Source: Pelagibacterium limicola (lineage in GTDB: Bacteria; Pseudomonadota; Alphaproteobacteria; Rhizobiales; Devosiaceae). From it: a DNA stretch of 64,000 nt. The DNA lies in contig NZ_JADQDB010000002.1 of assembly GCF_015694405.1 (NCBI RefSeq), forward strand, positions 434,001 to 498,000. Direction: 5' to 3'. This document shows positions 7,844-62,675 of this stretch, in pieces. Below the pieces are notes generated by a model. It was given only the letters and a program-made list of their open reading frames with translations. It was not told the origin of the DNA and ran no database searches. Both the position numbers and the translations under genes were made by a program. Each line of letters opens with the position of its first letter. The stretch's first letter is position 1.

Positions 7844-7853
7844 TAGAAAAGAA

Positions 7854-7880: not shown

Positions 7881-7901
7881 AAATACTCCAGCAGGACCAG
7901 A

Positions 7902-8336: not shown

Positions 8337-8370
8337 GGTACTCTCCTAATTTCCTGTTCGCAGCGGAAGA

Positions 8371-9387: not shown

Positions 9388-9451
9388 CACGTCCAACATC
9401 CTTTCAAAAATGCGGCCCTGCCCCGGCCGCCTGCCGCAAACGGTAAGCGGA

Positions 9452-9472
9452 CTTCGGTTGGCCTTACCGAAG
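9452..9472 (-). repeat. hairpin in the rpsK-rpoA gap
   Basis: CTTCGGT and ACCGAAG form a 7-base stem with a 7-base loop, about 10 bases after the rpsK stop. There is no T-run, so it is more likely an RNA-processing or stability element than a terminator. Confidence 0.4.
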
Positions 9473-9482
9473 CCCGGTCACA

Positions 9483-9875
9483 TTAGACGCGACGACGCTT
9501 GCGCGGCCGGCATCCGTTGTGGGGGATGGATGTAACGTCCCGGATACTCGTAACGGTGAAACCAGCGGCCTGGAGCGCGCGGAGAGCCGATTCACGGCCC
9601 GAACCCGGACCACGAACCTCGACCTCAAGGGTCTTCATGCCGTGTTCCTGCGCCTTCTTGGCCGCATCTTCAGCAGCCATCTGCGCTGCATAAGGGGTCG
9701 ACTTGCGCGAACCCTTGAAGCCCATCGTACCGGCGGATGACCAGGAGATCGTGTTGCCCTGAACGTCGGTGATAGTGACCATCGTGTTGTTGAAAGAGGC
9801 GTTTACGTGTGCAACGCCAGCACTGATATTCTTGCGCTCGCGGCGGCGAACGCGGGTCGTTTCAGCTTTAGCCAT
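9483..9875 (-). CDS. rpsK: 30S ribosomal protein S11
   Basis: S11 lines the platform of the small subunit near the E-site mRNA. The 130-residue protein shows [16 protein letters not shown] near residues 22-37, [14 protein letters not shown] and the highly conserved C-terminus [14 protein letters not shown]. Length is normal. It lies between rpsM and rpoA in standard alpha-operon order. Confidence 0.98.
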
Positions 9876-46309: not shown

Positions 46310-48136
46310 ATGAGGAGACAAGCTGTCAAATACGCCCTCAGGGGCGTCCTGATCGCGCTGGCCGTTGCCGGAAGCGCGACGATGGCGCGTGCCATCTGGG
46401 AGACCACTGCCCTCGATGCCGCGCGGGCTACCGGCGAAACGCGCGCCAGCCTTGTCGCGGAAGCCATCAGCAACGCCATTGGCCAGAACGAGCATTTCCC
46501 CCTGGTAATGGCGCTCGATCCTGACGTGCAGGCGGCCTTGGCCAATCCCGGCGATCCTGTCCTTGCCGGTTTCCTCAACCGCAAGCTCGAAATGATAACT
46601 GCTGCCAGCAGTCCTGCTGCGCTCTATGTCATGAAACGCGACGGCACGACGCTCTCATCCTCCAACTGGAACAGCGAAGATAGTTTCGTGGGCCAGAACT
46701 ATAGCTTCCGTTCCTATTTCACCGAAGCGATGGCAACGGGCAAAGGTTCATATTTCGGCATTGGCGCCACGACGGGCCGTGCGGGCTATTTCGTCTCACG
46801 CGCGGTTGGCGCGAACCCCGTTCTCGGCGTGGCCATTGCCAAGATCGAGTTCTACGATCTGGAAGCGACTTGGGAGCGCTCTTCCGAGCACATCATGGTT
46901 GCCGACAGTAGCGGCATCGTCTTTCTCGCCAGTCTTCCCGATTGGAAATACCGGACATTCGAACCTCTCGATGAAATCGCCGTGACGCGGATTGAACAGA
47001 CCCGCCAATTTGCCGGTCGCGCAATTGAAGCGCTTGAACTTGAACAACGGGGAGCCGGTCCGGATCATATCTGGATCGCCGGCTTGCCCGAAAACAGGAC
47101 TTATCTGCGCCAGACAGCCGCCATCCCCGAACTTGGTTGGACCGTGCTCCAGTTGTCCGACCTGCAGGGCGTTGCTGACGCCGGTCGCGACGGTATGGTG
47201 ATCGGGGGAACGGGTGCGGCACTGCTGGTTGCTATACTGTTCTACCTTGCCCAGCGCCAGCACTCCTATCGCACCGAACGCCGCGCTCGTGAGGAGCTCG
47301 AAATCCGCGTGGCCGAGCGTACCAGTGAATTGAGCGAAGCCAACGCTATGCTCCATCAGGAGGTCGAGGAGCGCCGCCGCGCCGAACAGGAACTGCGCGC
47401 CACCCAGCACGATCTGGTGCAAGCCGGCAAGCTGGCCGCCCTTGGGCAAATGTCGGCTGCCATCGCCCATGAAATCAATCAACCCCTCACAGCAATGCGC
47501 ACCTATATCGCGACCACCCGCATCTTTGCGCCCCTCGGCGATCCGCAACCCGTTCTCGACAATCTCGACAAGGTGGACGGCCTTGCCCAGCGCATGGGGC
47601 GCATTACCTCGCATCTCAAATCCTTCGCCCGCAAGGAAGGCATGGGAGCGCCCGAACTTGTTTCGGTTGACTGGGCGATCCTCCGGGCGGTCGATCTCGC
47701 CGAGGTGCAGGCGCGCGCCCTCGACGTCGCTTTCGATGTAGATATCCTCCCGACCTGGACGATGGGAAACGAAGTCCGCCTCGAACAAGTCATCCTCAAC
47801 CTCGTCCGCAACGCGCTCGACGCTGTTGCGGAAACAGAAATGCCGTGTGTCCGGATAGCCGTCGTCCAAGAGGCAGGATTGGTAAGGATTTCGGTCCGCG
47901 ACAACGGTCCCGGCTTCACCCCCGAAGTGCTGGAAACGCTTTTCGATCCCTTCGTAACCACCAAACCCTCCGGGGCGGGGCTAGGGCTCGGCCTCACTAT
48001 CTCGTCAGAGATCGTGCGCGATTTTGGCGGCACCATCTCCGCCCGCAACCACCCTCAAGGCGGGGCGGAACTCACGGTTGAGCTCAAGTCGGAAGCAGCG
48101 CCGGCGATCAAGGAGGGAGTTCGCACCAATGCTTGA
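46310..48136 (+). CDS. DctB-type membrane sensor histidine kinase
   Basis: This 608-residue two-component sensor has TM1 at about residues 8-28, a periplasmic double-PAS (dCache) ligand domain to about 300, TM2 near 304-325 (VIGGTGAALLVAILFYLAQ) and a coiled-coil linker rich in Glu/Arg to about 370. The phospho-acceptor histidine is H387 in SAAIAHEINQPLTAMRTY. The kinase domain has N box NLVRNALDAV, G1 DNGPGF and G2 SGAGLGLGL. Architecture and H-box match DctB, which senses C4-dicarboxylates, but the true ligand here is unknown. The 3' end overlaps the regulator gene by 8 bases. Confidence 0.92.
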   Translation: MRRQAVKYALRGVLIALAVAGSATMARAIWETTALDAARATGETRASLVAEAISNAIGQNEHFPLVMALDPDVQAALANPGDPVLAGFLNRKLEMITAASSPAALYVMKRDGTTLSSSNWNSEDSFVGQNYSFRSYFTEAMATGKGSYFGIGATTGRAGYFVSRAVGANPVLGVAIAKIEFYDLEATWERSSEHIMVADSSGIVFLASLPDWKYRTFEPLDEIAVTRIEQTRQFAGRAIEALELEQRGAGPDHIWIAGLPENRTYLRQTAAIPELGWTVLQLSDLQGVADAGRDGMVIGGTGAALLVAILFYLAQRQHSYRTERRAREELEIRVAERTSELSEANAMLHQEVEERRRAEQELRATQHDLVQAGKLAALGQMSAAIAHEINQPLTAMRTYIATTRIFAPLGDPQPVLDNLDKVDGLAQRMGRITSHLKSFARKEGMGAPELVSVDWAILRAVDLAEVQARALDVAFDVDILPTWTMGNEVRLEQVILNLVRNALDAVAETEMPCVRIAVVQEAGLVRISVRDNGPGFTPEVLETLFDPFVTTKPSGAGLGLGLTISSEIVRDFGGTISARNHPQGGAELTVELKSEAAPAIKEGVRTNA

Positions 48137-49490
48137 ACGAAAAGCGGTCTTCATCGACGACGAACCCGCCATGCGGGAGGCGATAAGCCAATGGCTTGCG
48201 GTCGCAGGATATGAGGTGATGGCTTTCGCCGAAGCCGAAAAGGCCGCAGCCGCCATCGACCACCGCTTCGAAGGCATCGTCATCACCGACCTGCGCATGC
48301 CGCGCATGAACGGGCTTGAGCTTCTGCGCCGCATCCTTGCGGTCGACCCCGATATACCGGTGATCCTGATGACCGGCCAGGGTGATATCGACAGCGCCGT
48401 GGCGGCAATGCGCATGGGCGCTTACGATTTCATGGAAAAGCCGTTCGATCCCGAGCGCCTTGCCGAAGCGGTGAAGCGTGCCAGCGAAAAGCGACAGCTG
48501 GTGATGGAAAACCGGCGGCTCCAGAATGCCCTGCCTGGCGACGCGTTGCGCAACCGCATTCTCGGTACGTCCCGCGCCATCGAGCGGCTGCGCGAAGACA
48601 TCGCGGAGCTGGCTGCAACCGAGGTATCGGTTATTCTTTACGGTGAGACCGGTGCCGGCAAAGATCTTGTCGCGCGCTGTCTCCATGACCTCGGCCGGCG
48701 TGCGAAAGGCCATTACGTCGCCGTCAACTGCACCGCCATCCCCGAAACGATGGTCGAGAGCGAAATGTTCGGCCATGAGGCCGGTGCGTTCACTGGCGCG
48801 ACGGCGCGGCGGGCGGGCAAGATCGAGTACGCCAGCGGTGGTACACTGTTTCTGGACGAAATCGAATCCATGCCGCTAGCCATGCAGGCCAAGCTTCTAC
48901 GCGTCCTGCAGGAGAAAAGCGTCGAACGGCTTGGATCGAACACGCTAATTCCCATTGATCTGCGCACCGTCGCCGCTGCCAAGAGCGATCTGCGCGCCGC
49001 GAGCGAGAAAGGAAGCTTCAGATCCGACCTCTATTTCCGCCTGTCGGTCGTGGAACTCCATATTCCCCCCTTGCGCGAGCGCCGGGAGGACATACCGCTG
49101 CTTTTCGAATTCTTTGCCTCTCGCGCCGCACGGGAGCACAATCGCGACCGACCGCCGATCTCTACATCCGCCATGGACGAACTGATCCACTACCAATGGC
49201 CTGGAAATGTTCGTGAATTACGCAATGTTGCCGAACGCCATGCTCTTGGCTTCGGCGTGTCGATCCTGCCCCAAGGGCATGCAACATCGACAGCACTGCT
49301 CGATGCCCTGCCGCTCACCCAACAGATGGAAGCCTTCGAGCGCCGGATCATAGAACGTGCGCTGGCCGATAGCGGGGGCCGAATATCCGACGTCATCGAG
49401 CGGCTGGGCGTGCCTCGCCGGACGCTCAACGAAAAAATGGCCAGACTTGGCATTGTCCGGCCAGCACCTGTCGACGCAGATCGGCAATAA
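48129..49490 (+). CDS. DctD-type sigma-54-dependent response regulator
   Basis: This 453-residue activator has a receiver domain at residues 5-120 with phospho-site D54 (VITDLRMPRMNG) and lysine in MEKPFDP. An AAA+ domain carries Walker A GETGAGKD, the sigma-54 contact loop GAFTGA and Walker B GGTLFLDEIES. A Fis-type helix-turn-helix ends the protein (GGRISDVIERLGVPRRTLNEKM). The start ATG lies inside the end of the kinase gene. A consensus sigma-54 promoter begins 115 bases downstream of its stop, in front of the TRAP genes, its likely target. Confidence 0.94.
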   Translation: MLERKAVFIDDEPAMREAISQWLAVAGYEVMAFAEAEKAAAAIDHRFEGIVITDLRMPRMNGLELLRRILAVDPDIPVILMTGQGDIDSAVAAMRMGAYDFMEKPFDPERLAEAVKRASEKRQLVMENRRLQNALPGDALRNRILGTSRAIERLREDIAELAATEVSVILYGETGAGKDLVARCLHDLGRRAKGHYVAVNCTAIPETMVESEMFGHEAGAFTGATARRAGKIEYASGGTLFLDEIESMPLAMQAKLLRVLQEKSVERLGSNTLIPIDLRTVAAAKSDLRAASEKGSFRSDLYFRLSVVELHIPPLRERREDIPLLFEFFASRAAREHNRDRPPISTSAMDELIHYQWPGNVRELRNVAERHALGFGVSILPQGHATSTALLDALPLTQQMEAFERRIIERALADSGGRISDVIERLGVPRRTLNEKMARLGIVRPAPVDADRQ

Positions 49491-49514
49491 TCCGCCGACA
49501 TCGGTCGTCTCGCG

Positions 49515-49528
49515 GGCAGGATTTTGCC
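49515..49528. promoter_or_regulatory. candidate upstream activator site for the DctD-type regulator
   Basis: GGCA and TGCC form an imperfect dyad across 14 bases, about 90 bases before the -24 element, the usual distance for a sigma-54 enhancer. A second dyad, CGGC/GCCG, lies at 49482-49497. Neither is strong enough to be sure. Confidence 0.3.
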
Positions 49529-49563
49529 TATTACGCTTGAACTGTCTAATCCATCCGTAACAA

Positions 49564-49576
49564 TAAATTCTTGAAA
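49564..49576. promoter_or_regulatory. candidate IHF binding site
   Basis: TAAATTCTTGAAA matches the IHF consensus (YAAnnnnTTGATW) with one mismatch. It sits in an AT-rich patch between the possible activator sites and the sigma-54 promoter, where a DNA bend would bring the activator to the polymerase. Confidence 0.45.
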
Positions 49577-49604
49577 TTAATATGTTTTCCGCAACCTTGG
49601 AATA

Positions 49605-49621
49605 TTGGCATAGCCTTTGCA
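49605..49621 (+). promoter_or_regulatory. sigma-54 (-24/-12) promoter of the TAXI-TRAP operon
   Basis: TTGGCATAGCCTTTGCA contains the -24 TGGCA and -12 TTGCA elements with GG and GC exactly 12 bases apart, as in the consensus. It lies 112 bases upstream of the binding-protein ATG and immediately after the gene for a sigma-54 activator. Confidence 0.85.
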
Positions 49622-49733
49622 GTTCGCTTACCGCCCGACGGGCTTTCTTGTGGAGCAGGTCGAGGAGCCTGCGAAACGCAAACTAGACAATTGGCTCGTG
49701 CCGGTTCCCGGCGCGCCAGTTTGGGAGGAAAAA

Positions 49734-50693
49734 ATGAAACTTCTACCAGCGTGCGCCGTTGCCGGCGCGCTTGCCCTCACCGCACCCGCCTTCGGCCAGA
49801 TGCAGCTTTCCATCGCCACGGGCGGTACCGGAGGAGCGTATTACCCGATCGGCGGCGGCCTGGCCGAATTGATAGGCCAGCACATCGACGGCTACGCGGC
49901 GGTTGCCGAAGTCACCGGCGCCTCGGTCGAGAACATGGCACTGATCCATAACGGCGGGGCAGACTTCGCCATTGCACTGGGCGATACGGTCTATCAGGCA
50001 TATACGGGTACCGGCGCATTTGAAGTCGGCAAGGTGGATGCTCTCGCCCTCGCGGCGCTTTATCCCAATGCCGTCCAGATCGTCGTTCCCGCCGAATCCG
50101 ACATCCAGTCTTTGTCCGACCTGCGCGGAAAGCGCGTTTCGGTCGGCGCCCCCGGCTCGGGCACCGAGATCAACGCCCAGGCCATCCTGCACGGCAACGG
50201 CATGAGCTATGAGGACCTTGCCTCTGCTCAGCGCCTCAACTTCAACGAAACTGCCGACGCCATTCGCGACGGCGACATCGACGCCGGTATCTGGAGCGTC
50301 GGCCCCCCGACGGGTTCGATCATCTCGCTGGCCGCCACCCGGTCGATCCGGCTGATCCCATTGACCACGGAAGAGATCGCCAATGCCAAGGAGCTTGAAC
50401 CGATCTTTGCCGACTATACGCTGCCTGAAGGCATCTATGACGGCACGGCCCAGACCGCGACCGTCGGCATCCCCAACGCGCTCGTCGTTCCCGGCGACAT
50501 GGACGATGACCTCGCCTATCAGGTGACAAAACTCCTCTTTGAGGAAGTGGAGTATTTGCGCTCGATTCACCCGGCGACCAACGACACGACGATTGAGTTC
50601 AGTCTCGGTGCCAGCCCGATCCCCCTCCATCCCGGCGCGATCCGTTACTATGAGGAAGTCGGCGCGACCGTGCCCGATCGCTTGCGCCCCTAG
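49734..50693 (+). CDS. TAXI-family TRAP transporter substrate-binding protein
   Basis: This 319-residue periplasmic receptor has a signal peptide over residues 1-21 (ALTAPAFG-Q). The mature start, LSIATGGTGGAYYPIGGGLAELI, is the TAXI family signature, followed by GGADFAIALGD, LRGKRVSVGAPGSGTEINA and the C-terminal PLHPGAIRYYEEVG. GGAGG lies 8 bases before ATG 49734; a longer frame upstream overlaps the promoter leader and is rejected. Characterised TAXI proteins bind carboxylates such as glutamate or 2-oxoglutarate; the substrate here is unknown. Confidence 0.93.
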   Translation: MKLLPACAVAGALALTAPAFGQMQLSIATGGTGGAYYPIGGGLAELIGQHIDGYAAVAEVTGASVENMALIHNGGADFAIALGDTVYQAYTGTGAFEVGKVDALALAALYPNAVQIVVPAESDIQSLSDLRGKRVSVGAPGSGTEINAQAILHGNGMSYEDLASAQRLNFNETADAIRDGDIDAGIWSVGPPTGSIISLAATRSIRLIPLTTEEIANAKELEPIFADYTLPEGIYDGTAQTATVGIPNALVVPGDMDDDLAYQVTKLLFEEVEYLRSIHPATNDTTIEFSLGASPIPLHPGAIRYYEEVGATVPDRLRP

Positions 50694-50696
50694 GGA

Positions 50697-51194
50697 ATGA
50701 CGTTCGCCGCAAATCTGCTCAGGGCGGGCATTGTGCTCGCCCTGTCCAGTACGCTTATGCTCGCGGACGAACCCGGCTCGCTGGCGATGCTAGACACCGA
50801 GGGGAAAGAACTGCTGACCTTCCCCGTGAAGGATGGCGATCGCTGGTGCCTTCACTGGAATCATTCGGTCGCCGGGTTTCTGGTGCGCGATTGCTTCATG
50901 GCCGTCGATGGACGCATGATGCTCGAAAGGAGCCATCAGCCCGATATCGCGGCAGGTCTCGGCCACATCCCGGGACGCGGAACCATGACCTCCGCCCCTG
51001 AGGGCGGATACTGGATCGAGACGATAAACGAATTTGTACCGGGCAACTGCTTGCGATTGCGGGTGGGCTCGATGGCGGTAAACCACAGACTGATAATCGG
51101 CAGCCACGAGGAGAGCCTGTCGGAGATCGCAGCGCGGCAACCGGTCCGCATCGTGCTGCGTCCGGTAGGGGCTGAGGGAGAGAGCACATGCTGA
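50697..51194 (+). CDS. DUF1850 TRAP-associated protein
   Basis: This 165-residue protein has an N-terminal signal or anchor segment (residues 4-22). It carries the DUF1850 core, with WNHSVAGFLVRDCF near residue 46 (the HSV motif of the family) and a later GNCLRLRVGSMAVNHRLII. DUF1850 genes are found almost only between TAXI receptors and fused TRAP permeases. It starts 3 bases after the receptor stop and overlaps the permease by 7 bases, so the three are translated together. Function in transport is unknown. Confidence 0.85.
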   Translation: MTFAANLLRAGIVLALSSTLMLADEPGSLAMLDTEGKELLTFPVKDGDRWCLHWNHSVAGFLVRDCFMAVDGRMMLERSHQPDIAAGLGHIPGRGTMTSAPEGGYWIETINEFVPGNCLRLRVGSMAVNHRLIIGSHEESLSEIAARQPVRIVLRPVGAEGESTC

Positions 51195-53218
51195 ATTCGA
51201 TGCAAGCGAGCGAAGGAAATACTGGAAAGCCGCCGATCCCGCCGGCCGAGCCCAGGCCGCGCCCGATCGTCATGCTGACCATCGCGCTCTCCGTCGCCCT
51301 ATGTCTGTTCCAGATGTACACCGCCGGGATCAACCCGCTCGGCCTCTTCTACCAGCGCCCGATCCATCTGGGCTTCATCCTGATGATCACGTTCCTCGTC
51401 TTCCCCGTTTTCGGGCCGAACCGTAGACTCGCGCCCCTCGGCGCGTTGGTCGACACGATCTTTTTTGCCGCGGCAATCGTCTCCGGCTTTTACATCGTCG
51501 TCTTCCTCGACGACATCATTCGCCGTGCCGGTTTCTGGACCACCACCGACATCGCCGTGGGGATCATCGCCACTATTACCCTGCTCGAAGCCAGTCGCCG
51601 CGCCGTGGGCATTGGCATCACGATCATCGGCGTTGCCTTCATCGTCTATGCAATGGCCGGTCCACGCGGCCCCCTACCCTGGCTCGGCGAAATCATGCCG
51701 GGCATCTTGGCGCACCGTGGTTATGGGATCGATCGCATTGCTGCCGTGCTCTACCTGGGCCAGGAAGGCATATTCGGCCTGCCGCTGGGTGTCGCAGCAA
51801 CCTACGTGTTCACCTTCGTGCTGTTCGGGGCGGTACTCGAGGTGACGGGCGCCGGCAGGTTCTTCATCGACATCTCCTATGCCCTCACCGGGCGGCGTCA
51901 GGGCGGACCTGCCAAGGCGGCCGTGCTGGCCTCTGCTGCGATGGGCTCGATCTCCGGTTCGACAATCGCCAACGTCGTCACCTCCGGCCCGTTCACCATC
52001 CCGCTGATGAAACGGCTAGGCTACAAACCTTCCCAGGCTGGCGGGATCGAGGCCGCAGCATCGACCGGTGGCCAGATCATGCCTCCGCTTATGGGCGCTG
52101 GAGCGTTCCTGATCGCCGAATACACGTCGATTCCTTACCTCCAGATCGTGCTCGTAAGCATCTTCCCCGCTTTCCTCTATTTCCTGACGGTCTACCTTTT
52201 TGTCCACATCATTGCGGTCAAACAGAACCTTCGCGGCCTGCCCGCGAGCGAACTGCCTGCCGTACGCGAGGTGATGAAGGGAGGCTGGCACTTCCTCGTC
52301 CCACTCGCCCTGCTCGTTTACCTGCTCATTGTGGGCATATCGCCACTGCGCGTCGGCTTCTGGGCGATCATTTCGGTCGTCGCGATCGCGGTCCTCAAAT
52401 ACAGCTACGATTGGCTACGCAACCGGCCGGGAGACGAAACACGGCTTCCCATTGGCGAAGCGCTGAAAGCCGGAGCCCTCATGCTCGTAACGGCCTGCCG
52501 GTTGGGCGCCCGTAACGCACTGACCGTCTCGATTGCCTGTGCCATCGGCGGCATCATCGTGGGCGTTATCGGCCTTACCGGGCTGGGACTGAAGTTCAGC
52601 GGCTTGATGATGACCTTTTCTGGCGGCAATATCATCCTTGCGCTCATTCTCGTCATGCTGGCCAGCCTGATCCTGGGTTTCGGCCTGCCCGTAACGGCAG
52701 CCTATATCGTGCTCGTCATTCTGGTCGGGCCGGCGCTGACCACCGAGTTCGGTATCCCGTTGCTGATCGTGCACCTCGCGGTCTTCTGGTACTCTCAGGA
52801 CTCAAACGTAACCCCGCCAGTCGCCCTTGCAGCCTTCGCGGCCTCCGCGGTTGCCCGCAGTCCGGTTATGGAAACCAGCGTGCAGGCATGGAAATACGCC
52901 AAGGGGCTCTACATCATCCCAATGTTCATGGTGTTCAATCCCGAGATCATCGTCGGGGGACCCGTCGAAATCGTTCTTTGGAACGGTGCCTTGGCGCTCA
53001 CGGGAACAATAGCCTTTGTGGCGGTGCTTGAGGGCTTTATGTTCACGCGCTTGCACCCAGCATTCCGCCCTGTCCTCCTGGCCGGAGGTATAGGGTGCCT
53101 CTCTCCCTATTTCGCCGCAGAAGCCGCCGGCATGGCTGCCATTCTCGGCATTCTTGGATACAATTTCCTCCGCGCGGTCCAAGACAACAAGGTGCCTCCT
53201 CAACCTCAAAGTTCGTAG
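51188..53218 (+). CDS. TRAP transporter permease, fused 4TM/12TM type
   Basis: This 676-residue inner-membrane protein joins the small DctQ-like part (about the first 170 residues, four helices) to the large DctM-like part. Visible landmarks are YFLGQEGIFGLPLGVAATYVF-type sequence near residue 197, the SGSTIANVVTSGPFTIPLMKR loop with GGIEAAASTGGQIMPPLMGAGAF, and LASLILGFGLPVTAAYIVL. This fused form pairs with TAXI receptors. An acidic-aromatic tail lacks a CAP-like extension. Confidence 0.94.
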   Translation: MLNSMQASEGNTGKPPIPPAEPRPRPIVMLTIALSVALCLFQMYTAGINPLGLFYQRPIHLGFILMITFLVFPVFGPNRRLAPLGALVDTIFFAAAIVSGFYIVVFLDDIIRRAGFWTTTDIAVGIIATITLLEASRRAVGIGITIIGVAFIVYAMAGPRGPLPWLGEIMPGILAHRGYGIDRIAAVLYLGQEGIFGLPLGVAATYVFTFVLFGAVLEVTGAGRFFIDISYALTGRRQGGPAKAAVLASAAMGSISGSTIANVVTSGPFTIPLMKRLGYKPSQAGGIEAAASTGGQIMPPLMGAGAFLIAEYTSIPYLQIVLVSIFPAFLYFLTVYLFVHIIAVKQNLRGLPASELPAVREVMKGGWHFLVPLALLVYLLIVGISPLRVGFWAIISVVAIAVLKYSYDWLRNRPGDETRLPIGEALKAGALMLVTACRLGARNALTVSIACAIGGIIVGVIGLTGLGLKFSGLMMTFSGGNIILALILVMLASLILGFGLPVTAAYIVLVILVGPALTTEFGIPLLIVHLAVFWYSQDSNVTPPVALAAFAASAVARSPVMETSVQAWKYAKGLYIIPMFMVFNPEIIVGGPVEIVLWNGALALTGTIAFVAVLEGFMFTRLHPAFRPVLLAGGIGCLSPYFAAEAAGMAAILGILGYNFLRAVQDNKVPPQPQSS

Positions 53219-53246
53219 AGTCCAGCGATCCTACCCGCGCACTTAC

Positions 53247-53277
53247 CGATTAACCTGAGTTAATCGACGGGCTTTTT
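53247..53277 (+). terminator. probable terminator or operator after the TRAP operon
   Basis: A perfect 8-base stem (CGATTAAC with GTTAATCG, CTGA loop) is followed six bases later by five T residues. The stem is AT-rich, so it is weaker than a typical terminator and could be a regulator dyad for the dehydrogenase operon that starts 110 bases downstream. Confidence 0.45.
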
Positions 53278-53386
53278 GCGCAGGTATTCGGCGTCGTTGA
53301 ATGCTCACCAACAAGAGCGAATACCGCTTTCTCGGAACTTCCGCCCTCCGGTCCCATTCTGTACAGAGTAAATACGGCAGGGACAC

Positions 53387-54127
53387 ATGGCGGAGGGACT
53401 ATCCAGACGAGCGGCTCTGCAGCTGCTGTTCATGACAACAACGGCGTTCGCGTTTCCTCAAACCCTGTTAAGCCGGGAGTATGGACGCGGCGAAGGTATG
53501 CCTTGGGGCGCTGCTGCCGGCGACGTTCCCTACTATGGCATCCCCGATCAGCGGTTTTTCAACGCAGATGAACTTTCGGCGGTGCGCGCCATCGCGGCAC
53601 GGCTCATCCCGAGCGACGAGGACGGGCCAGGCGCCACAGAGGCGGACGTCGCGACCTTCATTGACCGTCAGATGGCTGGGTTCTACGGCCGGGCCCAGCA
53701 TTGGTATATGCAGGGACCGTTTGAGGACGGCTTGCCGACGCAAGGTTATCAGAGCGAACATCCGCCAGCCCAACTCTACCGCTTGGCGCTCGCCGAGCTC
53801 GATGCTTATTGCGATGCCAATTTTGGCCTTCCCTTCAGCGGTTTGCCCGAAAACGAGCAGGACGGAATCCTGACCGGGATTGAAGACGAAGAAATCACCT
53901 TCGAAACGGTATCGGCAAAAACGTTCTTCGACCTCTTCCTCGAAAACACCATAGAGGGGTTCTTCGCAGATCCCATCTACGGCGGAAACCGGGACATGGT
54001 CGCTTGGCGCTACGTGGGGTTTCCTGGAGCCCGCTACGATTATCGTGACTTTGTGGGCCATAACGGCGCCCGGATCGACCTGCCCCCGGTGAGCCTTCTG
54101 GGCCGCCCGGGCTGGTCGCGCCAATAA
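53387..54127 (+). CDS. gluconate 2-dehydrogenase subunit III-like protein
   Basis: This 246-residue small subunit of a flavocytochrome dehydrogenase complex has an N-terminus (LSRRAALQLLFMTTTAFAF) that is a twin-arginine-like signal. In this family the Tat signal on subunit III carries the partner flavoprotein across the membrane. Conserved segments are FFNADELSAVRAIAARLIPSDEDGPGA and FADPIYGGNRDMVAWRYVGFPGA near residue 196. It starts a four-gene operon with the GMC flavoprotein 19 bases downstream. Confidence 0.9.
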   Translation: MAEGLSRRAALQLLFMTTTAFAFPQTLLSREYGRGEGMPWGAAAGDVPYYGIPDQRFFNADELSAVRAIAARLIPSDEDGPGATEADVATFIDRQMAGFYGRAQHWYMQGPFEDGLPTQGYQSEHPPAQLYRLALAELDAYCDANFGLPFSGLPENEQDGILTGIEDEEITFETVSAKTFFDLFLENTIEGFFADPIYGGNRDMVAWRYVGFPGARYDYRDFVGHNGARIDLPPVSLLGRPGWSRQ

Positions 54128-54146
54128 CGGAACTGGAGAGGAGCAT

Positions 54147-55907
54147 ATGGTAACGCGGCTCGAGAGCGTTGATGTGGTGCTGGTCGGCTTTGGCTGGACC
54201 GGGGCCATCATGGCGGAAAAACTGACCGATGCCGGTCTCGAAGTTCTAGCCATCGAACGCGGCCCTTGGCGCGACACCCCAACTCACTTCCCGACGACCT
54301 TTGCGCAGGACGAGCTTCGCTACTACTGGCGTCACGGCATGTTTCAGGAAACCGCACAGGACACCCTGACATTCCGCAACAATCGCTCCCAGACCGCCCT
54401 TCCGATGCGGCGCTGGGGTTCTTTCCTGCCCGGGAATGGGGTTGGGGGCGGCGGCGTGCACTGGAACGGACAGACTTTCCGTTTCCTGCCCTCCGATTTC
54501 GTCGCCAGGAGCCACAACGAAGAGCGGTACGGTCCCCTGCTCGAGGACATGACCGTGCAGGACTACGGCGTCACTTACGACGAGTTGGAGCCGCACTTCG
54601 ACTATTTCGAGAAAATCTGCGGCATATCCGGACAGGCCGGAAACGTCAGGGGCGAATTTATCGAAGGCGGAAATCCTTTCGAAGGTGAACGTTCGGACCA
54701 TTACCCCAATCCGCCGCTTCGTATGACCTTTTCGCAAGACCGATTTGCCGAAGCCTCGCGACAACTCGGGCTGCATCCTTTCCCCGGCCCCGCCGCCAAC
54801 ATGTCGCGTGCCTACGTCAATCCCTTGGGCGTGCATCTCGCCCCGTGCACCTATTGCGGCTTCTGCGAAAAGTTCGGCTGCGGCAATTATTCGAAGTCGG
54901 CGCCCCAGACTACGATCATTCCGGTTCTCATGCGGCGCAACAATTTCCGGTTGAAGACCAATGCCGAAGTCCTGACAGTGCAGCAGACTCCCGACCAGTC
55001 GATGGCATCCGGAGTGACCTATCTCGATGCCAATGGCGAAGAATACTTCCAGCCGGCCGATATTGTGGTCCTCTGCGCTTACCCGCTTTCCAATACGCGG
55101 TTGATGCTCCTCTCGGGTATCGGCGAACCCTACGACCCCGAAACCGGCCACGGTGTTGTCGGCAAGAACTATTGCTATCAGGTCATGTCCGGCGTCGATA
55201 TCTTCTTTGAGGATGAATACACCAACGAATTTGTCGGTGCCGGCGCGCTCGGCATGATCGTCGACGAATATAACGGCGACAATTTCGACCACACGGGGCT
55301 TGGCTTTATCGGCGGCGCGTATATCGGCTGCTGGACCACCCACGCCCGCCCGATCGAAAGCCATCCGGTGCCCGAAGGCGTTCCCTCCTGGGGCAGCGAG
55401 TGGAAAAAGGCAGTCCGGGAAAATTTCCTCAAGCATACTTCGCTAAGCGTACACGGCGCTTCGATGGCGCATCGCACGAATTATCTGGATCTCGATCCCA
55501 CCTATACCGATCGCCTCGGCCGCCCGCTCATGCGCATGACCTACGACTTCACGCTCAATGACCGGCGGCTGACCCAACATATTACGCCCATCGCCGAAGA
55601 GATTGCGCGAGGCATGGGGGGGCGCGAGATTACGGTCAACCATCGGCGCGGCTCCTACGACTCGATGCCCTACCAGACCACGCACAATACCGGGGGCACC
55701 ATCATGGGCTCCACCCCGGTGGACAGCGTGGTCAACCGGTATTGCCAGAGCTGGGATCTCCCCAACCTGTTCATAACGGGGGCCGGGCTCTTTCCCCAGA
55801 ATGCCGGATACAACCCCACGGGGACCGTCGCAGCGCTGGCTTATTGGTCAGCTGAAGCCATCGTCAACCAGTATCTGAGGACCGAAGGGCCATTGGTGCA
55901 GGCATGA
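54147..55907 (+). CDS. GMC-family FAD-dependent dehydrogenase, large subunit
   Basis: The 586-residue flavoprotein oxidises a sugar, sugar acid or polyol and passes electrons to the partner cytochrome. The FAD-binding G14-F-G-W-T-G19 motif opens the protein, and the C-terminal GMC region has HNTGGTIMGSTPVDSVVN and NAGYNPTGTVAALAYW with the active-site histidine/asparagine area. C234, C237, C240 and C245 (CTYCGFCEKFGC) resemble the cysteine cluster of related complexes, suggesting an iron-sulphur centre. It has no signal of its own, fitting piggy-back export with subunit III. AGGAG precedes the ATG. Confidence 0.92.
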   Translation: MVTRLESVDVVLVGFGWTGAIMAEKLTDAGLEVLAIERGPWRDTPTHFPTTFAQDELRYYWRHGMFQETAQDTLTFRNNRSQTALPMRRWGSFLPGNGVGGGGVHWNGQTFRFLPSDFVARSHNEERYGPLLEDMTVQDYGVTYDELEPHFDYFEKICGISGQAGNVRGEFIEGGNPFEGERSDHYPNPPLRMTFSQDRFAEASRQLGLHPFPGPAANMSRAYVNPLGVHLAPCTYCGFCEKFGCGNYSKSAPQTTIIPVLMRRNNFRLKTNAEVLTVQQTPDQSMASGVTYLDANGEEYFQPADIVVLCAYPLSNTRLMLLSGIGEPYDPETGHGVVGKNYCYQVMSGVDIFFEDEYTNEFVGAGALGMIVDEYNGDNFDHTGLGFIGGAYIGCWTTHARPIESHPVPEGVPSWGSEWKKAVRENFLKHTSLSVHGASMAHRTNYLDLDPTYTDRLGRPLMRMTYDFTLNDRRLTQHITPIAEEIARGMGGREITVNHRRGSYDSMPYQTTHNTGGTIMGSTPVDSVVNRYCQSWDLPNLFITGAGLFPQNAGYNPTGTVAALAYWSAEAIVNQYLRTEGPLVQA

Positions 55908-57148
55908 CGGACGGTAACCCAAATATCCCCGCCATCGGCGTGGTCGCGTTCGTAGCCGCTCTGGGTGGCACCGACATCATCGCCCAGGAGCTCAATTATA
56001 CCCAGATCGAGCGCGGGCGTTACCTCGCGACGGCAGGAAACTGCGTCGCCTGCCATACCGATATCGAGAACGACGGCATCCCATTTGCCGGCGGTCGCGG
56101 CCTGGAAACGCCCTTCGGCATCATCTATTCGCAGAATCTGACCCCGGACGACGAGACCGGCATCGGCCACTGGACGCGTGACGATTTTTACAGGGCGATG
56201 AACGAGGGCGTCGACCGGCACGGCGAGCATCTCTACCCGGCGTTCCCCTATGTCTATTTCACGATCGTGACGCGAGAGGATGTCGACGCGATCTACGAAT
56301 ATCTGCGTACGCTCGAACCGGTCCAATCCGTCGTTCCCGAAAATGAATTGCCGTTCCCTCTCGATGTGCGTCAATCGCTTCTGGGGTGGAAAACATTGTT
56401 CTTCGAAGAGGCAGAATTCGTCCCCGATCCCGATCAATCGGAGGTCTGGAACAGAGGGCGCTATCTGGTCGATGGACTTGGGCACTGTGGCGCCTGTCAT
56501 ACAGGCAAGAACGCCCTTGGTGGTGACCAGGAGGATGAATACCTGCGCGGCGGCACGCTTGAAAACTGGTACGCACCGAATATCAGAGGCGGCCTAAATG
56601 GCGGCATTTCCCACTGGGAAATCGAGGATATCGTCGATTTCCTCGGTGTGGGACGCGCCAGGCACACGGCGCCCATGCAGCGAATGGGCGAGGTGGTTGG
56701 CCTTTCGACCCAATACCTGACGGAAGGGGACCTCGAAGCGATTGCCGTATATCTCAAAAGCCTCGATGACAGAGCCCCGGAGGTTCCCGATCCCGTCGAT
56801 GAGGATAGATACCAGGCGGGAAAAGCCATTTACTTTGACAACTGCGCCGCCTGCCACGCCGCCGATGGGTCTGGTGTGCCCTATATTTTTGCCCCGCTCG
56901 ACGGCTCCAACAAGGTCACCGCAGAGGATCCTTCGACAATGCTTCGTGTCATTCTGGGAGGCGCGAAGGCCGAACCGACTGATTTGGCTCCGGGACCCCT
57001 GGCAATGCCGCCTTTTGCATGGAAGCTCACCGACGAGCAGATTGCCGACCTCGCCTCCTACATGCGTCAGGCATGGAGCAACAGCGCGGGCGCGATATCT
57101 CCGGACGCCGTTGCTGACATGCGCGCCTACCTTGAGGAGCACAGGTGA
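55904..57148 (+). CDS. triheme cytochrome c subunit of the dehydrogenase
   Basis: The 414-residue electron-acceptor subunit has an N-terminal signal segment at about residues 8-27. Three CXXCH heme sites start at C47 (CVACH), C195 (CGACH) and C314 (CAACH), each in its own cytochrome c domain. This matches gluconate, 2-ketogluconate, sorbitol and fructose dehydrogenase cytochromes, which send electrons to ubiquinone or a cytochrome. There is no clear C-terminal membrane anchor. It overlaps the flavoprotein gene by 4 bases and the next gene by one (TGATG). Confidence 0.94.
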   Translation: MTDGNPNIPAIGVVAFVAALGGTDIIAQELNYTQIERGRYLATAGNCVACHTDIENDGIPFAGGRGLETPFGIIYSQNLTPDDETGIGHWTRDDFYRAMNEGVDRHGEHLYPAFPYVYFTIVTREDVDAIYEYLRTLEPVQSVVPENELPFPLDVRQSLLGWKTLFFEEAEFVPDPDQSEVWNRGRYLVDGLGHCGACHTGKNALGGDQEDEYLRGGTLENWYAPNIRGGLNGGISHWEIEDIVDFLGVGRARHTAPMQRMGEVVGLSTQYLTEGDLEAIAVYLKSLDDRAPEVPDPVDEDRYQAGKAIYFDNCAACHAADGSGVPYIFAPLDGSNKVTAEDPSTMLRVILGGAKAEPTDLAPGPLAMPPFAWKLTDEQIADLASYMRQAWSNSAGAISPDAVADMRAYLEEHR

Positions 57149-57615
57149 TGCGAGCACACCGTCTTCCGGCACTGTTCACCATTGGACTTTTCTCCACCGC
57201 GGCCGTGGCCCAGCCACTCTATCTGGGCGCTCAGGAAATCGACACAGCCGACCGGGACGCAGTGGCCGCCGTTATTGAGCGCTGCATAGAGCTAACAGAG
57301 GAGACCACCGACCTCGAAATCGTGACCCGCTTTACTCAAGCGCGGATTGAAACCGACGGAGAGATCCAGCCCAACGAGGAGACTTCCCCCCTCCTCGCTC
57401 AATCCCGTGAAGAAGGGCTCGGAGATATACCGATCTCACTCGACGTGGATGCGGTCGCTTCGGATGGGGACGACTCCGAAGCCGAGGGCGAAGGAGGCGG
57501 CGAAGGGCCAGAGCAGGAACAAGAGGATGACGGCGGGGACCAGTCCGAGGGCGACGGTCCCGATATGCAAGCGATCACACTCGAGGATTGCAAGGAAGCC
57601 GGGCTGATCTTTTGA
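57148..57615 (+). CDS. acidic exported protein of unknown function, co-translated with the cytochrome
   Basis: This 155-residue protein is not one I recognise. Residues 1-21 form a signal peptide (cleavage after AVA). A short helical part with C46 (ERCIELTEETTDLE) follows, then a low-complexity stretch at about residues 105-138 of Glu, Asp, Gly and Ser, and a conserved-looking end with C148 (LEDCKEAGLIF). The two cysteines could form a disulfide around the acidic loop. The TGATG overlap with the cytochrome gene suggests a fourth subunit or accessory factor. A GTG one codon earlier is also possible. Confidence 0.7.
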   Translation: MRAHRLPALFTIGLFSTAAVAQPLYLGAQEIDTADRDAVAAVIERCIELTEETTDLEIVTRFTQARIETDGEIQPNEETSPLLAQSREEGLGDIPISLDVDAVASDGDDSEAEGEGGGEGPEQEQEDDGGDQSEGDGPDMQAITLEDCKEAGLIF

Positions 57616-57635
57616 ACGCCCGGCTCCGCCAAGGC

Positions 57636-58487
57636 TCAGCCGCTATAGGCTACCGTCTTTTGCTGTTGCTCGCCAAGTCCGGCAACACTCAGACGCATGG
57701 TCTGGCCAGGCTTTAGGTAGATGGGCTCGGGCTTGATGCCAAGGCCGACGCCCGGAGGTGTGCCTGTCGTGATGATGTCACCGGGCTGCAGGCTCATGAA
57801 GTGCGAAATGTAGCTCACAAGGTGAGCGACGCCGAACACCATCGTGCGGGTCGAGCCGTTCTGATAGCGGTGTCCGTCGACCTCGAGCCACATGTCGAGG
57901 TTCTGCGGGTCCGGCACCTCGTCGCGTGTCACGAGCCAGGGGCCGATGGGACCGAATGTATCGGCTGATTTCCCCTTGACCCATTGGCCGGAGCGCTCCG
58001 TCTGGAATTCGCGTTCCGAGAGGTCGTTGACCACGCAATATCCCGCGACATGATCGAGCGCATCGGACTCCTCCACGTAGCGGGCTTCCTTGCCAATCAC
58101 GACACCCAGTTCGACTTCCCAGTCGGTCTTTTTCGAGTTCTTGGGGATGATGACGTCGTCATTGGGGCCGCAAATGGCGCTGGTCGCCTTCATAAACAGT
58201 ACCGGTTCGGGCGGTACGGCCATCCCGCTTTCGGCGGCGTGATCCGAATAATTAAGTCCGACGCAAATAAATTTGCCGACCCGGCCGACGCACGGTCCAA
58301 TCCGCTCCGAAGCATCGAGCTGCGGCAATGAGGAATGATCGGCGGCGGCAATTCGCGCCAGCCCTTCGGGAGTCAACGCGCTCCCAGCAATATCATCGAC
58401 CAGACCCGAAAGGTCACGGATAGTGCCGTCGTTGGCCAGAATGGCGGGCTTTTCGGCGCCTTTGGCGCCGACACGCATAAGCTTCAT
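57636..58487 (-). CDS. fumarylacetoacetate hydrolase-family protein, probable 2,4-diketo-3-deoxy-L-fuconate/rhamnonate hydrolase
   Basis: This 283-residue cytoplasmic hydrolase has VGLNYSDHAAESG, the metal-ligand region DWEVELGVVIGKEARYV (Glu-x-Glu plus Asp pattern) and GDIITTGTPPGVGLG. Close relatives include ureidoglycolate lyase-like proteins and the hydrolase that splits 2,4-diketo-3-deoxy-L-fuconate into pyruvate and L-lactate. The neighbouring SDR, lactonase-like, mutarotase and lactate dehydrogenase genes favour the latter. ATG 58487 has GGGAG upstream. It lies 22 bases after the SDR gene. Substrate is inferred from context. Confidence 0.85.
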   Translation of the reverse strand: MKLMRVGAKGAEKPAILANDGTIRDLSGLVDDIAGSALTPEGLARIAAADHSSLPQLDASERIGPCVGRVGKFICVGLNYSDHAAESGMAVPPEPVLFMKATSAICGPNDDVIIPKNSKKTDWEVELGVVIGKEARYVEESDALDHVAGYCVVNDLSEREFQTERSGQWVKGKSADTFGPIGPWLVTRDEVPDPQNLDMWLEVDGHRYQNGSTRTMVFGVAHLVSYISHFMSLQPGDIITTGTPPGVGLGIKPEPIYLKPGQTMRLSVAGLGEQQQKTVAYSG

Positions 58488-58509
58488 GTCAACTGTCTCC
58501 CGGTAAGGC

Positions 58510-59241
58510 TTAGGCGGTCCATCCGCCATCTATGATGTGAATATGTCCGGTCGTGTAGGTCGCGCCCGCGAGGTAAACGGCAAGGTCTGCGACCTCCTCG
58601 GGCGCCCCGATACGGCCGATGGGCTGGCGGGCGATAAAAGCTGCACGCGCTGCTTCATAGTCTCCCGTGGCTCGTAGGCGGTCTTGCAGCGAGGGGCTAT
58701 CCACGGTGCCCGGACAGATTGCATTGCAACGGATGCCTTTCGCCACGTAATCGACGGCGACTGACTTCGTAAGGCCTATGACCGCTGCCTTTGATGCCGA
58801 ATAGGCAAACCGGTTCGGGACCCCCGTAATCGAGGAAGCGACCGACGACATGTTGACGATCGAACCGTCGCCCCGCTCAAGCATGCCCGGCAGCACGGCC
58901 TTGATCGTGCGGATCTGCGCCTTGACGTTGAGATTGAACGCTAAGTCGATATCGCTGTCACTGGCTTCGAGGATTGCGCCATTGTGCACGACCCCGGCGC
59001 AATTGAAGAGTATGTCGATTTGTCCGATTTCAGCGACACCAGCATTGACCGATTCAGTCGATAGAACATCGAGCACCCGGGTTTCTATACCCGCCTCGCC
59101 GTCGAGCTCTCTAAGCTTTTCGGCATTGATATCGGTAGCAACCACGCGCGCTCCTGCCCTTGCAAAGGCCAGTGCAGAAGCATGGCCAATGCCTTGAGCA
59201 GCCGCCGTGATCAGACAAACCTTTCCCGCTAGATCGCTCAT
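58510..59241 (-). CDS. SDR oxidoreductase, probable 2-keto-3-deoxy-L-fuconate dehydrogenase
   Basis: This 243-residue Rossmann-fold enzyme has a cofactor motif TAAAQGIG (residues 12-19) that replaces the usual TGxxxGIG and is typical of the 2-keto-3-deoxy-L-fuconate and BDH2-like group. D37 after the second strand points to NAD. NCAGV, and the active-site serine region 132-137 with Y147 and K151 (YSASK), are intact. The start at 59241 has AAAGGG upstream. It is the first gene of a minus-strand pair with the FAH hydrolase, divergent from the IclR regulator. Confidence 0.88.
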   Translation of the reverse strand: MSDLAGKVCLITAAAQGIGHASALAFARAGARVVATDINAEKLRELDGEAGIETRVLDVLSTESVNAGVAEIGQIDILFNCAGVVHNGAILEASDSDIDLAFNLNVKAQIRTIKAVLPGMLERGDGSIVNMSSVASSITGVPNRFAYSASKAAVIGLTKSVAVDYVAKGIRCNAICPGTVDSPSLQDRLRATGDYEAARAAFIARQPIGRIGAPEEVADLAVYLAGATYTTGHIHIIDGGWTA

Positions 59242-59330
59242 CCGGATACCCTTTTGCTGTGACATGCCTCAGAATCCTGTCGGCCACTTCCTAGTAAGGC
59301 TTGATCATCCATATTTGAAAAGTGTATTCG

Positions 59331-59342
59331 TATGCAAGCATA
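59331..59342. promoter_or_regulatory. candidate IclR-type operator
   Basis: TATGCAAGCATA has 5-base inverted arms with a 2-base centre. It lies in the divergent gap between the SDR and IclR genes, 23 bases before the regulator ATG, a suitable place to control both directions. The assignment rests on position and symmetry only. Confidence 0.4.
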
Positions 59343-59364
59343 ACGTGAAGCTGGACGACAAAGA

Positions 59365-60138
59365 ATGGTATTGAAGGATGCTGACCGTTATCGCGCGCCG
59401 GCGCTGGACAAGGGCCTCGACATTATCGAGCTGCTGGCCGGTACCGAAGCAAGTCTCAGCCAGGCAGAGATATCCAAGGCCCTCGGCCGCACTCCGAACG
59501 AAATCTACCGCATGCTCGACCGATTGGTGCGACGCGACTATGTGCTTCGCACCAGCGAGGATCGCTACGAACTGACACTCAAGTTGTTCGAGCTTGCCCA
59601 TTCCCGCCCCCCCATCAACCGTCTGGTCCGGCAGGCAACGCCCGTGATGCGCCACTTCGCCCGCGAATCCGAGCAGGCTTGCCACCTCGTGATCGAAGAC
59701 CGGAACGCCCTGATCGTAGTGGCGCAGGTCGACGGCCCCGGTTACTGGAACATCTCGCTTCGTGTCGGCGCCCGCATGGCACTGGTCAATACCGGTTCTG
59801 GGCATGTGTTCCTTGCGCATGCGGCCCCGGACGAGCGGCTCCAAATGATTGAAGCGCATGGCTTGAACGCGTCCAAAACCCTGACCCACTCCCTTGCAGC
59901 CCGGCTCGATAAGGTTCGCGAGCAAGGCTACGAGAACATGCCTAGCGTCCAGGTTGGATCTGTCTATAACCTCTCGGTACCAGTCTTTGGCCCCTTGGGA
60001 TCAGTGATTGCTGTCTTGACGTGCCCCTACACAGAACGCCTTGACCGCAAGGACGCACCGGACACGGAACGCACGATCAGGCTCTTGCGCGCGGCGGCTG
60101 CCGAACTCTCCCAACGATCAAACGCGGCCGGACAATAA
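59365..60138 (+). CDS. IclR-family transcriptional regulator
   Basis: This 257-residue DNA-binding protein has an N-terminal winged helix (ALDKGLDIIELLAGTEASLSQ, then AEISKALGRTPNEIYRMLDRLVRRDYV, residues 13-60). The C-terminal effector domain follows from about residue 80, with GYWNISLRVGARMALVNTGSGHVFLAH and SVPVFGPLGSVIAVLT. IclR proteins bind small carboxylates or sugar-acid intermediates. Next to the deoxy-sugar genes, a keto-deoxy acid is a plausible effector (inference). The amidohydrolase gene starts 11 bases downstream, so the regulator is in the plus-strand operon. Confidence 0.92.
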   Translation: MVLKDADRYRAPALDKGLDIIELLAGTEASLSQAEISKALGRTPNEIYRMLDRLVRRDYVLRTSEDRYELTLKLFELAHSRPPINRLVRQATPVMRHFARESEQACHLVIEDRNALIVVAQVDGPGYWNISLRVGARMALVNTGSGHVFLAHAAPDERLQMIEAHGLNASKTLTHSLAARLDKVREQGYENMPSVQVGSVYNLSVPVFGPLGSVIAVLTCPYTERLDRKDAPDTERTIRLLRAAAAELSQRSNAAGQ

Positions 60139-60149
60139 GAGGAAACGAC

Positions 60150-60989
60150 ATGCGCATCATCGATACACATCTGCACCTGATCTATCCCGGCCGGTTCAGT
60201 TATCCGTGGCTTGCCGACTATCCCACCATCAACCGAGCCTGGCATGAGGAGGACTATTTCAACCTAGCGCGCGCGTTGGGAATCCAGGGTGCGTTGCATA
60301 TGGAGGTCGATGTCGCGGAAAGAGATATCCTTCCGGAAACCGAGTTCGTCCTTGGCGCGCATCCGCAAATCCTTGGGGCTATCGCCTCCTGTCGTCCCGA
60401 AAATAAAGGTTTCGACGCCTTTCTCGACCGCGTGACAACGCTCGGAGAGGTCAAGGGGCTTCGCCGCATCCTGCACCAGTCGCCCAATGAGCTATCCCAA
60501 TCCGAACTTTTCGCCGCGAACATCCGGAAACTGGCAGCCCGCGACCTCTCCTTCGATCTCTGCGTCCGCGCTGACCAACTCCCAGTAGGCATGGCCCTCA
60601 TCGACAAGGCCCCTGAAGTCCAGTTCGTACTCGATCATTGTGGTGTCCCGGATATCGTGGGAGATGATTTCCAGGCATGGCGCGGTGCCATCACAGAAAT
60701 CGCCAGACGCCCCAACCTCGCAGCGAAACTGTCCGGCATAGTTGCCTATGCAGGAGCTGATTGGACGTTAGCCGATCTCAAGCCCTACGCCGAACACGTC
60801 ATCGCGGTTTTCGGATGGGACCGCGTGGTCTGGGGTTCCGACTTCCCGGTCTGCACACTCTTTGCCGATCTCAAACGCTGGGTCGAAGCTACCCATGCCC
60901 TGCTCGCTGGTGCGAGCGAGGACGAAAAGGCGCGGTTGCTGCATCGCAACGCTGAACGGATCTATAAACTCGAAAACCGGAGTATTTGA
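60150..60989 (+). CDS. amidohydrolase-fold lactonase, probable L-fuconolactonase (COG3618 type)
   Basis: This 279-residue TIM-barrel enzyme has the metal motif H7-L-H9 (DTHLHL), DHCG after strand six and GSDFPV with the catalytic aspartate near residue 231. The pattern is that of COG3618 proteins, which hydrolyse sugar lactones such as L-fucono-1,5-lactone or 4-sulpholactone-like substrates. There is no signal peptide, so it acts in the cytoplasm. AGAGGAA precedes the ATG. The mutarotase gene begins 2 bases after its stop. Substrate is inferred from context. Confidence 0.82.
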   Translation: MRIIDTHLHLIYPGRFSYPWLADYPTINRAWHEEDYFNLARALGIQGALHMEVDVAERDILPETEFVLGAHPQILGAIASCRPENKGFDAFLDRVTTLGEVKGLRRILHQSPNELSQSELFAANIRKLAARDLSFDLCVRADQLPVGMALIDKAPEVQFVLDHCGVPDIVGDDFQAWRGAITEIARRPNLAAKLSGIVAYAGADWTLADLKPYAEHVIAVFGWDRVVWGSDFPVCTLFADLKRWVEATHALLAGASEDEKARLLHRNAERIYKLENRSI

Positions 60990-60991
60990 AA

Positions 60992-61321
60992 ATGCAGCGT
61001 TATGGCTTTGTCCTGGGACTCAAGCACGACCAGATCGCCGAGTACAAGCGCATCCACGCCGATGTGTGGCCTGACGTGCTCAAGCAGATCAAAAAAAGCA
61101 ATATCGCCAACTACTCGATCTTTCTCAAGGAACCCGAAAACCTGCTCTTTGCCTATTACGAATATATGGGGACCGACCACGATGCCGACATGGCCGCGAT
61201 GGCCGAGGATCCGCGTACGCAGGAATGGTGGGCAATATGCATGCCCATGCAGAGCCCGCTCGAAACGCGGCGGGAGGGGGAGTGGTGGGCCGAGATGGAT
61301 GAGGTTTTCCACATCGATTGA
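60992..61321 (+). CDS. L-rhamnose mutarotase-family protein (RhaM/DUF718)
   Basis: This 109-residue protein interconverts sugar anomers. H22 (EYKRIHADVWPDVL) matches the catalytic His22 of E. coli RhaM; the NYSIFL tyrosine and the paired tryptophans in TQEWWAICMPMQ also fit. ATG 60992 has GGAG upstream and gives the family length, while a TTG two codons earlier overlaps the upstream stop. Family members act on L-rhamnose or L-fucose, supporting a 6-deoxy-sugar pathway for this cluster. Confidence 0.88.
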   Translation: MQRYGFVLGLKHDQIAEYKRIHADVWPDVLKQIKKSNIANYSIFLKEPENLLFAYYEYMGTDHDADMAAMAEDPRTQEWWAICMPMQSPLETRREGEWWAEMDEVFHID

Positions 61322-61448
61322 TCGGCTCGGGCTGGTGGCGCGCTGCTAATCGGCCACATTTTCCGCCACACGAAAGGCTGATTGCACCGCGGCGTTCTCC
61401 GACGCATAGTCGCCACGATTTCTCCCTCAAATCACCACGGGACAAACG

Positions 61449-62594: not shown

Positions 62595-62675
62595 TCCACT
62601 GGCGACGAGGAAACGAAAATCTTTGCAGACCTACGCCCACGTATGACGCGTAGCAATCAGCTGATCGACAGACTT

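Follow-up and report, generated by a model that had tools for sequence, protein, structure and literature searches.

The DctB/DctD system of rhizobia employs tandem upstream sites, much like the dyad pair described below. Its dCache sensor kinase and sigma-54-type regulator control a dicarboxylate carrier (dctA; PMC4077058). DctB-like dCache sensors also govern the RpoN-dependent uptake of acids, five-carbon ones included, in MifS/MifR of Pseudomonas aeruginosa (alpha-ketoglutarate; PMC4482717) and AauS/AauR (acidic amino acids; PMC8694187, PMC7962211), and their targets in the consulted parts of these papers are PA5530 and an ABC transporter. In the 64,000-nucleotide stretch of Pelagibacterium limicola analyzed here (G000:C4:434001-498000, hereafter the window; genome size 3.47 Mb), a kinase-regulator pair of the DctBD type lies directly upstream of a tripartite ATP-independent periplasmic (TRAP) transporter operon with a TAXI-family receptor (49734-53218). 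The pair very probably regulates the TAXI-TRAP operon as a substrate-induced uptake switch. The same locus is also present in a Rhizobiales metagenome-assembled genome (UBA3584, L032) and in cultured relatives, among them Aquamicrobium sp. LC103 and Pseudothauera nasutitermitis.

The kinase (46310-48136, + strand; Pfam dCache_1, HisKA, and HATPase_c) matches the DctB structures 2zbb and 3e4o over its sensor region (E ~1e-41), and DctB is the closest among solved structures. Two residues that we take to be DctB ligand contacts, Arg in NYSFRSYF and Lys in AKIEF, were aligned in 24 of 24 sensors. The regulator (48129-49490, + strand; Response_reg, Sigma54_activat, and HTH_8) most likely starts at the ATG overlapping the kinase stop, as judged by eye, instead of at the mechanical open reading frame start (48024). 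As originally predicted for this DctD-like activator, the GAFTGA sigma-54 loop is intact; it is accompanied by a Fis-type helix-turn-helix, and the genome encodes an rpoN scoring above its cut-off. The recognition helix carries PRRTLNEK, a form of the motif PRRTLN[ED]K that the 21 linked regulators in this family share without exception, and the helix differs in two related regulators without TAXI and in the second TAXI-linked regulator of the same genome. The pair is named DctBD-type because none of the 25 NCBIfam matches listed for the kinase, and none of the 25 for the regulator, reaches its curated cut-off. Judged by its gene context, the pair is best regarded as DctBD-type rather than DctBD, as its adjacent target is a TAXI-TRAP operon instead of a dctA or dctPQM C4 carrier. 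The contig that bears the SDF carrier contains none of the nine regulators matched at E up to 1e-40.

The composition of the operon was confirmed by family matches, in line with the original prediction. It comprises the TAXI-family TRAP solute-binding protein (49734-50693; PF16868, NMT1_3), with 319 bits to TIGR02122 (cut-off 84.35), a DUF1850 protein with a hydrophobic N-terminus seen by eye (50697-51194; PF08905), and a fused TRAP permease of the DctQM type (51188-53218; PF06808), with 616 bits to TIGR02123 (cut-off 320.65); all are on the + strand. DUF1850 occurs in 23 of 249 phylum-sample genomes and adjoins a TRAP permease in 22 of the 23 (loci L153-L175), which makes the protein a probable accessory component of such transporters. 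A DUF1850-permease fusion, suggested by long open frames, was ruled out by hand in L153 and L160, where DUF1850 lies in another frame.

The sigma-54 -24/-12 element TTGGCATAGCCTTTGCA at 49605-49621 (+ strand; predicted start ~49632) contains 13 of the 13 specified bases of YTGGCAYRNNNNTTGCW, as expected of the consensus element predicted there, and an exact match occurs nowhere else in the genome (forward strand 1, reverse strand 0; 0 and 1 for the reversed-pattern control). A looser pattern with 2 mismatches showed no excess in the window (19 found vs 29 expected). Two putative enhancer dyads lie further upstream on the + strand, GGCAATAATCCGCC at 49483-49496, overlapping the 3' end of the regulator, and GGCAGGATTTTGCC at 49515-49528, each with 0 mismatches and 32 bp apart. 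Such dyads had been proposed as possible, and the pair is conserved in relatives. In 17 promoter regions, two copies of GGCRRNNNNYYGCC lie upstream, at a spacing of 31–33 bp in all but one, where it is 29 bp; two of the 17 pairs include one copy with 2 mismatches. At ≤1 mismatch, the 17 regions contain 32 dyads (shuffled mean 3.2, maximum 9), and at least two dyads were found in 15 regions (shuffled mean 0.3, maximum 3). Because the pattern itself was read from 12 loci (G012 repeats G009), the fair test is given by six other loci (G726, G304, G414, G418, G318, and G248), which represent three groups, with G726 close to G027; four of them have two dyads, and two have one dyad plus a 2-mismatch copy. 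The significance of the dyads comes from the pair, its spacing, and its conservation. A single dyad in the window is not significant (3 found vs 3.75 expected), and a genome-wide single-dyad scan with GGCRRNNNNYYGC was uninformative (1776 matches vs 1215 for the reversed control). The integration host factor (IHF) site proposed at 49564-49576 was not supported. It is a 1-mismatch match on the - strand that 17% of shuffles equal or better, and exact matches are patchy among relatives, occurring in 2 of 17 regions (G414 and G418).

The sigma-54 site and the linked regulator co-occur across TAXI loci. The loci are upstream regions of TAXI genes from relatives and from phylum and order samples, with at most 30 loci fetched per search out of the matches listed, and "without an upstream regulator" denotes that none was found in the ~1.5 kb examined upstream. 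Among 73 non-identical loci, a site of at least 12/13 was present in 14 of 16 with an upstream regulator vs 1 of 57 without (Fisher p 5e-12, relatedness ignored). The set of 80 TAXI proteins combines these loci with plasmid and named loci. A 12–13/13 site is present there in 17 of 17 loci whose upstream regulator has GAFTGA or GAYTGA, in none of the three whose upstream regulator is without the GAF/YTGA loop, and in one of 60 without an upstream regulator. Together with the conserved paired operators, this distribution strongly supports the original prediction of a DctBD-type pair driving a sigma-54-promoted TAXI-TRAP operon. On the TAXI tree, obtained by a quick search and containing several long branches, the regulator trait changes 7 times, and 5 independent supported pairs all agree (median p 0.0625, the lowest possible for 5 pairs). 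Some observations weigh against this reading: relatedness reduces the support to 5 independent contrasts, 2 of the 17 promoter regions hold a single dyad at ≤1 mismatch, and at the exceptional locus L227 a 12/13 site stands with no regulator upstream and none found in the surrounding 15 kb. On these comparisons the regulatory reading holds and extends, as a DctBD-type regulon for TAXI-TRAP operons, to Alphaproteobacteria and other members of the phylum.

Other loci add to this picture. In G004, from the same genus as the window, the operon is present with no kinase or regulator beside it, no 12/13 site in the 14 kb examined, and no upstream dyads. A 12/13 sigma-54 site precedes the TAXI gene at 7674 of L257 (G437), the one exception in the tabulated loci, with no related regulator in the 15-kb stretch. 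The genome of the window contains a second kinase-regulator-TAXI-permease locus (L198, C7:311000-325000, at 5153-9488). Its regulator reads GAFPGA for GAFTGA and has another recognition helix, there is no 12/13 -24/-12 site, and GGTGG...CCACC-like repeats were seen by eye upstream.

Regulators that lost the sigma-54 loop separate the operators from the promoter. A linked regulator without GAFTGA was found in G398, G442, G648, and a Marivivens plasmid, with no 12/13 site in any of them; the kinase-regulator pair lies downstream of the operon in G648 and the Marivivens plasmid. All four loci carry at least two dyads (≤1 mismatch) within 350 bp upstream of TAXI, with the nearest pairs 22–31 bp apart, and among regulator-less orthologues 0 of 10 carry two or more and three carry one. 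Because two dyads are also reached by 12 to 20 of 300 shuffles for each locus, the evidence for persistent dyads is the set of four, not a single locus. In the sequences compared, the dyads track the DNA-binding domain and the promoter tracks the loop, since the loop-less loci keep their dyads without a 12/13 site. GAFTGA-less regulators of this class that act without sigma-54 are described, in the consulted part of PMC10274813, for NtrC of Rhodobacter capsulatus and Caulobacter. The TAXI-linked NtrC-type regulators of L254, L255, L259, and L320 have lost GAFTGA with paired dyads kept, and Walker B is altered in L254 and L255. The co-variation of promoter, loop, and operator offers a clean natural experiment on sigma-54 dependence.

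In the proposed mechanism, the periplasmic dCache domain of the kinase would bind a dicarboxylate, and the kinase would phosphorylate the regulator. The regulator would bind the two 14-bp dyads, which are ~3 helical turns apart and whose centers precede the predicted start by ~142 and 110 bp, and loop to RNA polymerase-sigma54 at 49605-49621, and promoter opening would lead to transcription of the TAXI receptor-DUF1850-permease operon. We infer the phosphotransfer, binding, looping, and transcription from the parts, which are observed together with their conserved co-occurrence.

The substrate is possibly a C5 dicarboxylate without an amino group. Mapped by hand onto VcGluP, the receptor keeps Tyr45 and Ser75, with Gln93 replaced by Leu, Glu125 by Asn, Tyr200 by Trp, and Met201 by Ser. 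The signature L/Y/N/W/S at 93/123/125/200/201 occurs in 20 of 20 orthologues, which all have Leu and Asn at the equivalents of the glutamate-binder residues Gln93 and Glu125; in 9 of 9 regulator-linked paralogues, Gln replaces Trp in the signature. In VcGluP, Gln93 contacts the ligand amino group, and its mutation causes a 990-fold loss (PMC11574862, in the part consulted). The orthologous operon in G109, G371, and G451 is divergent from genes for CsiR, glutaryl-CoA dehydrogenase (GcdH), and a succinate-glutarate-type CoA-transferase. CsiR scores 354.7 bits in G109 and 351.7 in G371 (cut-off 218), and the G451 copy is 87% identical; in G109, GcdH has 647 bits to 3gnc and the CoA-transferase 537 bits to NF052585. 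G451 also has an L-2-hydroxyglutarate oxidase (LhgO; 595 bits, cut-off 299) a short distance upstream of TAXI. In Pseudothauera, which shares the kinase-regulator-TAXI arrangement, GcdH (71% identical) and a CoA-transferase are located ~4 kb upstream of the kinase. Both glutarate and L-2-hydroxyglutarate elicit a response from CsiR (PMC6667623), and 2-oxoglutarate and 2-hydroxyglutarate are the reported substrates of a Proteus TAXI (cited in PMC12344293). On account of the site residues, the CsiR, GcdH, and LhgO neighbors, the CsiR ligands, and the Proteus TAXI substrates, we tentatively assign the substrate to this class (glutarate, L-2-hydroxyglutarate, or 2-oxoglutarate), with a chance only just short of even and a lower one for any single compound. 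If the substrate here is a C5 compound, entry via 2-hydroxyglutarate or 2-oxoglutarate would be more likely than via glutarate.

Several findings speak against the C5 assignment. The NF052585 matches are below the curated cut-off of 750. Of the 20 orthologous loci searched, only 4 have GcdH nearby (three of these belong to a single genus), 3 have CsiR, and 1 has LhgO. In the genome of the window, neither GcdH (E up to 1e-120) nor an NF052585 CoA-transferase (E up to 1e-100) was found at these thresholds, and neither LhgO nor CsiR was found in the 54 kb of the window searched; no search of the whole genome was aimed at LhgO or CsiD. GcdH also does not track the transporter within the genus, being present in 5 of 6 genomes that have the orthologue and in 5 of 7 that lack it. 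Other neighboring genes were mostly uninformative as a substrate clue. A TAXI structure model from 5 sequences was weak (pLDDT 65.5; best PDB matches were TAXI receptors, TM ~0.4, root-mean-square deviation ~13) and was not used. On a Pontibrevibacter plasmid (L321, 2767-12720), a TAXI 50% identical to that of the window lies beside annotated CoA-transferases, a MaoC dehydratase, an acyl-CoA dehydrogenase, and an IclR regulator, and these neighbors hint at another diacid. A broader proposal is that the L/Y/N/W/S TAXI clade serves C5-dicarboxylate uptake (glutarate, L-2-hydroxyglutarate) with a dedicated DctBD-type regulon and includes a natural switch to sigma-54-independent control in G398, G442, G648, and Marivivens, where the loop was lost and the paired operators were kept; the whole is plausible, with a chance somewhat below even.

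The alternative that survives best retains the circuit, with the sensor and transporter responding to C4 dicarboxylates (succinate, malate, and fumarate) as in classical DctBD. The closeness of the sensor domain to DctB among solved structures supports it, as do a class II fumarase ~3 kb downstream of the permease in Pseudothauera (TIGR00979, 714 bits, cut-off 665) and, in G648, a separate DctM-type TRAP permease, its substrate not known, that adjoins the orthologous operon. However, C5-diacid genes recur beside orthologous operons, and the genome also encodes an SDF carrier along with 11 DctP receptors. Acids of other kinds are likewise sensed by DctB-like dCache sensors, MifS and AauS being examples (PMC8694187, PMC4482717). 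We regard a C4 substrate as unlikely.

The genes downstream of the operon bear on a sugar acid as the substrate. A membrane dehydrogenase-like triad (Gluconate_2-dh3, GMC oxidoreductase, and cytochrome c) occupies 53387-57148, directly downstream of the operon, and a terminator scan of the + strand from 53218 to 53387 found none. It is followed at 57636-63479 by a cluster resembling non-phosphorylative fucose/rhamnose breakdown, with an SDR, an IclR-like regulator, lactate-dehydrogenase-like and aldo-keto reductase genes, and two below-cut-off matches, one diketo-deoxy-rhamnonate hydrolase-like (437 bits, cut-off 500) and one L-fuconolactonase-like (95 bits, cut-off 400). Their position in the window and these matches would fit a transporter tied to gluconate-dehydrogenase-like genes and a fuconate/rhamnonate cluster, but in the relatives searched none of the genes at 53387-63479 was found next to the orthologous operon. 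On the same ground, the gluconate-dehydrogenase-like genes were not favored as part of the operon, though they may be co-transcribed with it. A sugar acid is improbable, and the evidence weakly favors a C5 dicarboxylate over it.

Glutamate, the substrate of characterized TAXI receptors, is a quite improbable cargo for the same circuit. The closest solved relatives of the receptor include glutamate binders, and glutamate uptake has been linked to the DctB-like sensor AauS (PMC8694187), but Gln93, the decisive residue, and Glu125 are replaced throughout the orthologues, and the other TAXI of the genome (C7:245840) keeps Q/H/E. The original prediction described TAXI as a class with few known substrates, which still holds overall, but the literature now names several: besides the Proteus substrates, glutamate (PMC11574862, PMC12632250) and phthalate (cited in PMC12344293). 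It is very improbable that the pair mainly controls other genes beside an incidental TAXI neighborhood: enhancer-binding proteins can act at a distance, and the loci examined around related regulators in Comamonas and Oceanospirillum show no TAXI match, but the only exact -24/-12 match of the genome lies here, and dyads, promoter, and regulator appear and vanish together.

A substrate is known for only a few of the widespread TAXI-TRAP transporters, and linking a regulator to a defined operator offers a way into both the signal and the cargo. According to a 2025 paper, a microbial transporter for glutarate uptake had not been reported prior to its own Escherichia coli KgtP work (PMC12622518), and a dedicated glutarate system would be useful for that reason.

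Among described systems, VcGluP (VC0430) and the Thermus TAXI receptors (PMC11574862, in the part consulted) belong to the same TAXI family and share the Tyr45 and Ser75 equivalents; the window differs in the four substituted site residues and in a separate DUF1850 gene in its operon. RSP_1412/1413 of Cereibacter sphaeroides likewise combines a TAXI receptor and permease for an acidic C5 compound, but it is a glutamate carrier, and the consulted text of PMC12632250 mentions "DctB" and "two-component" 0 times. BctDE-bctCBA of Bordetella, in the consulted part of PMC5812351, resembles the locus in that a two-component pair activates an adjacent binding-protein secondary transporter, but it belongs to the TTT family and serves citrate. 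No link between a DctBD-type pair and a TAXI operon was found among the full-text search matches listed, as far as their consulted text extends. MifS/MifR and AauS/AauR differ from the window in that their targets are not TAXI-TRAP, and DctB/DctD of rhizobia differs in that the window has a TAXI-TRAP target, its own dyad motif, and a putative C5 ligand. The kind of system is already known from DctBD, MifSR, and AauSR; what is new is the target class, the operator, and the putative C5 ligand.

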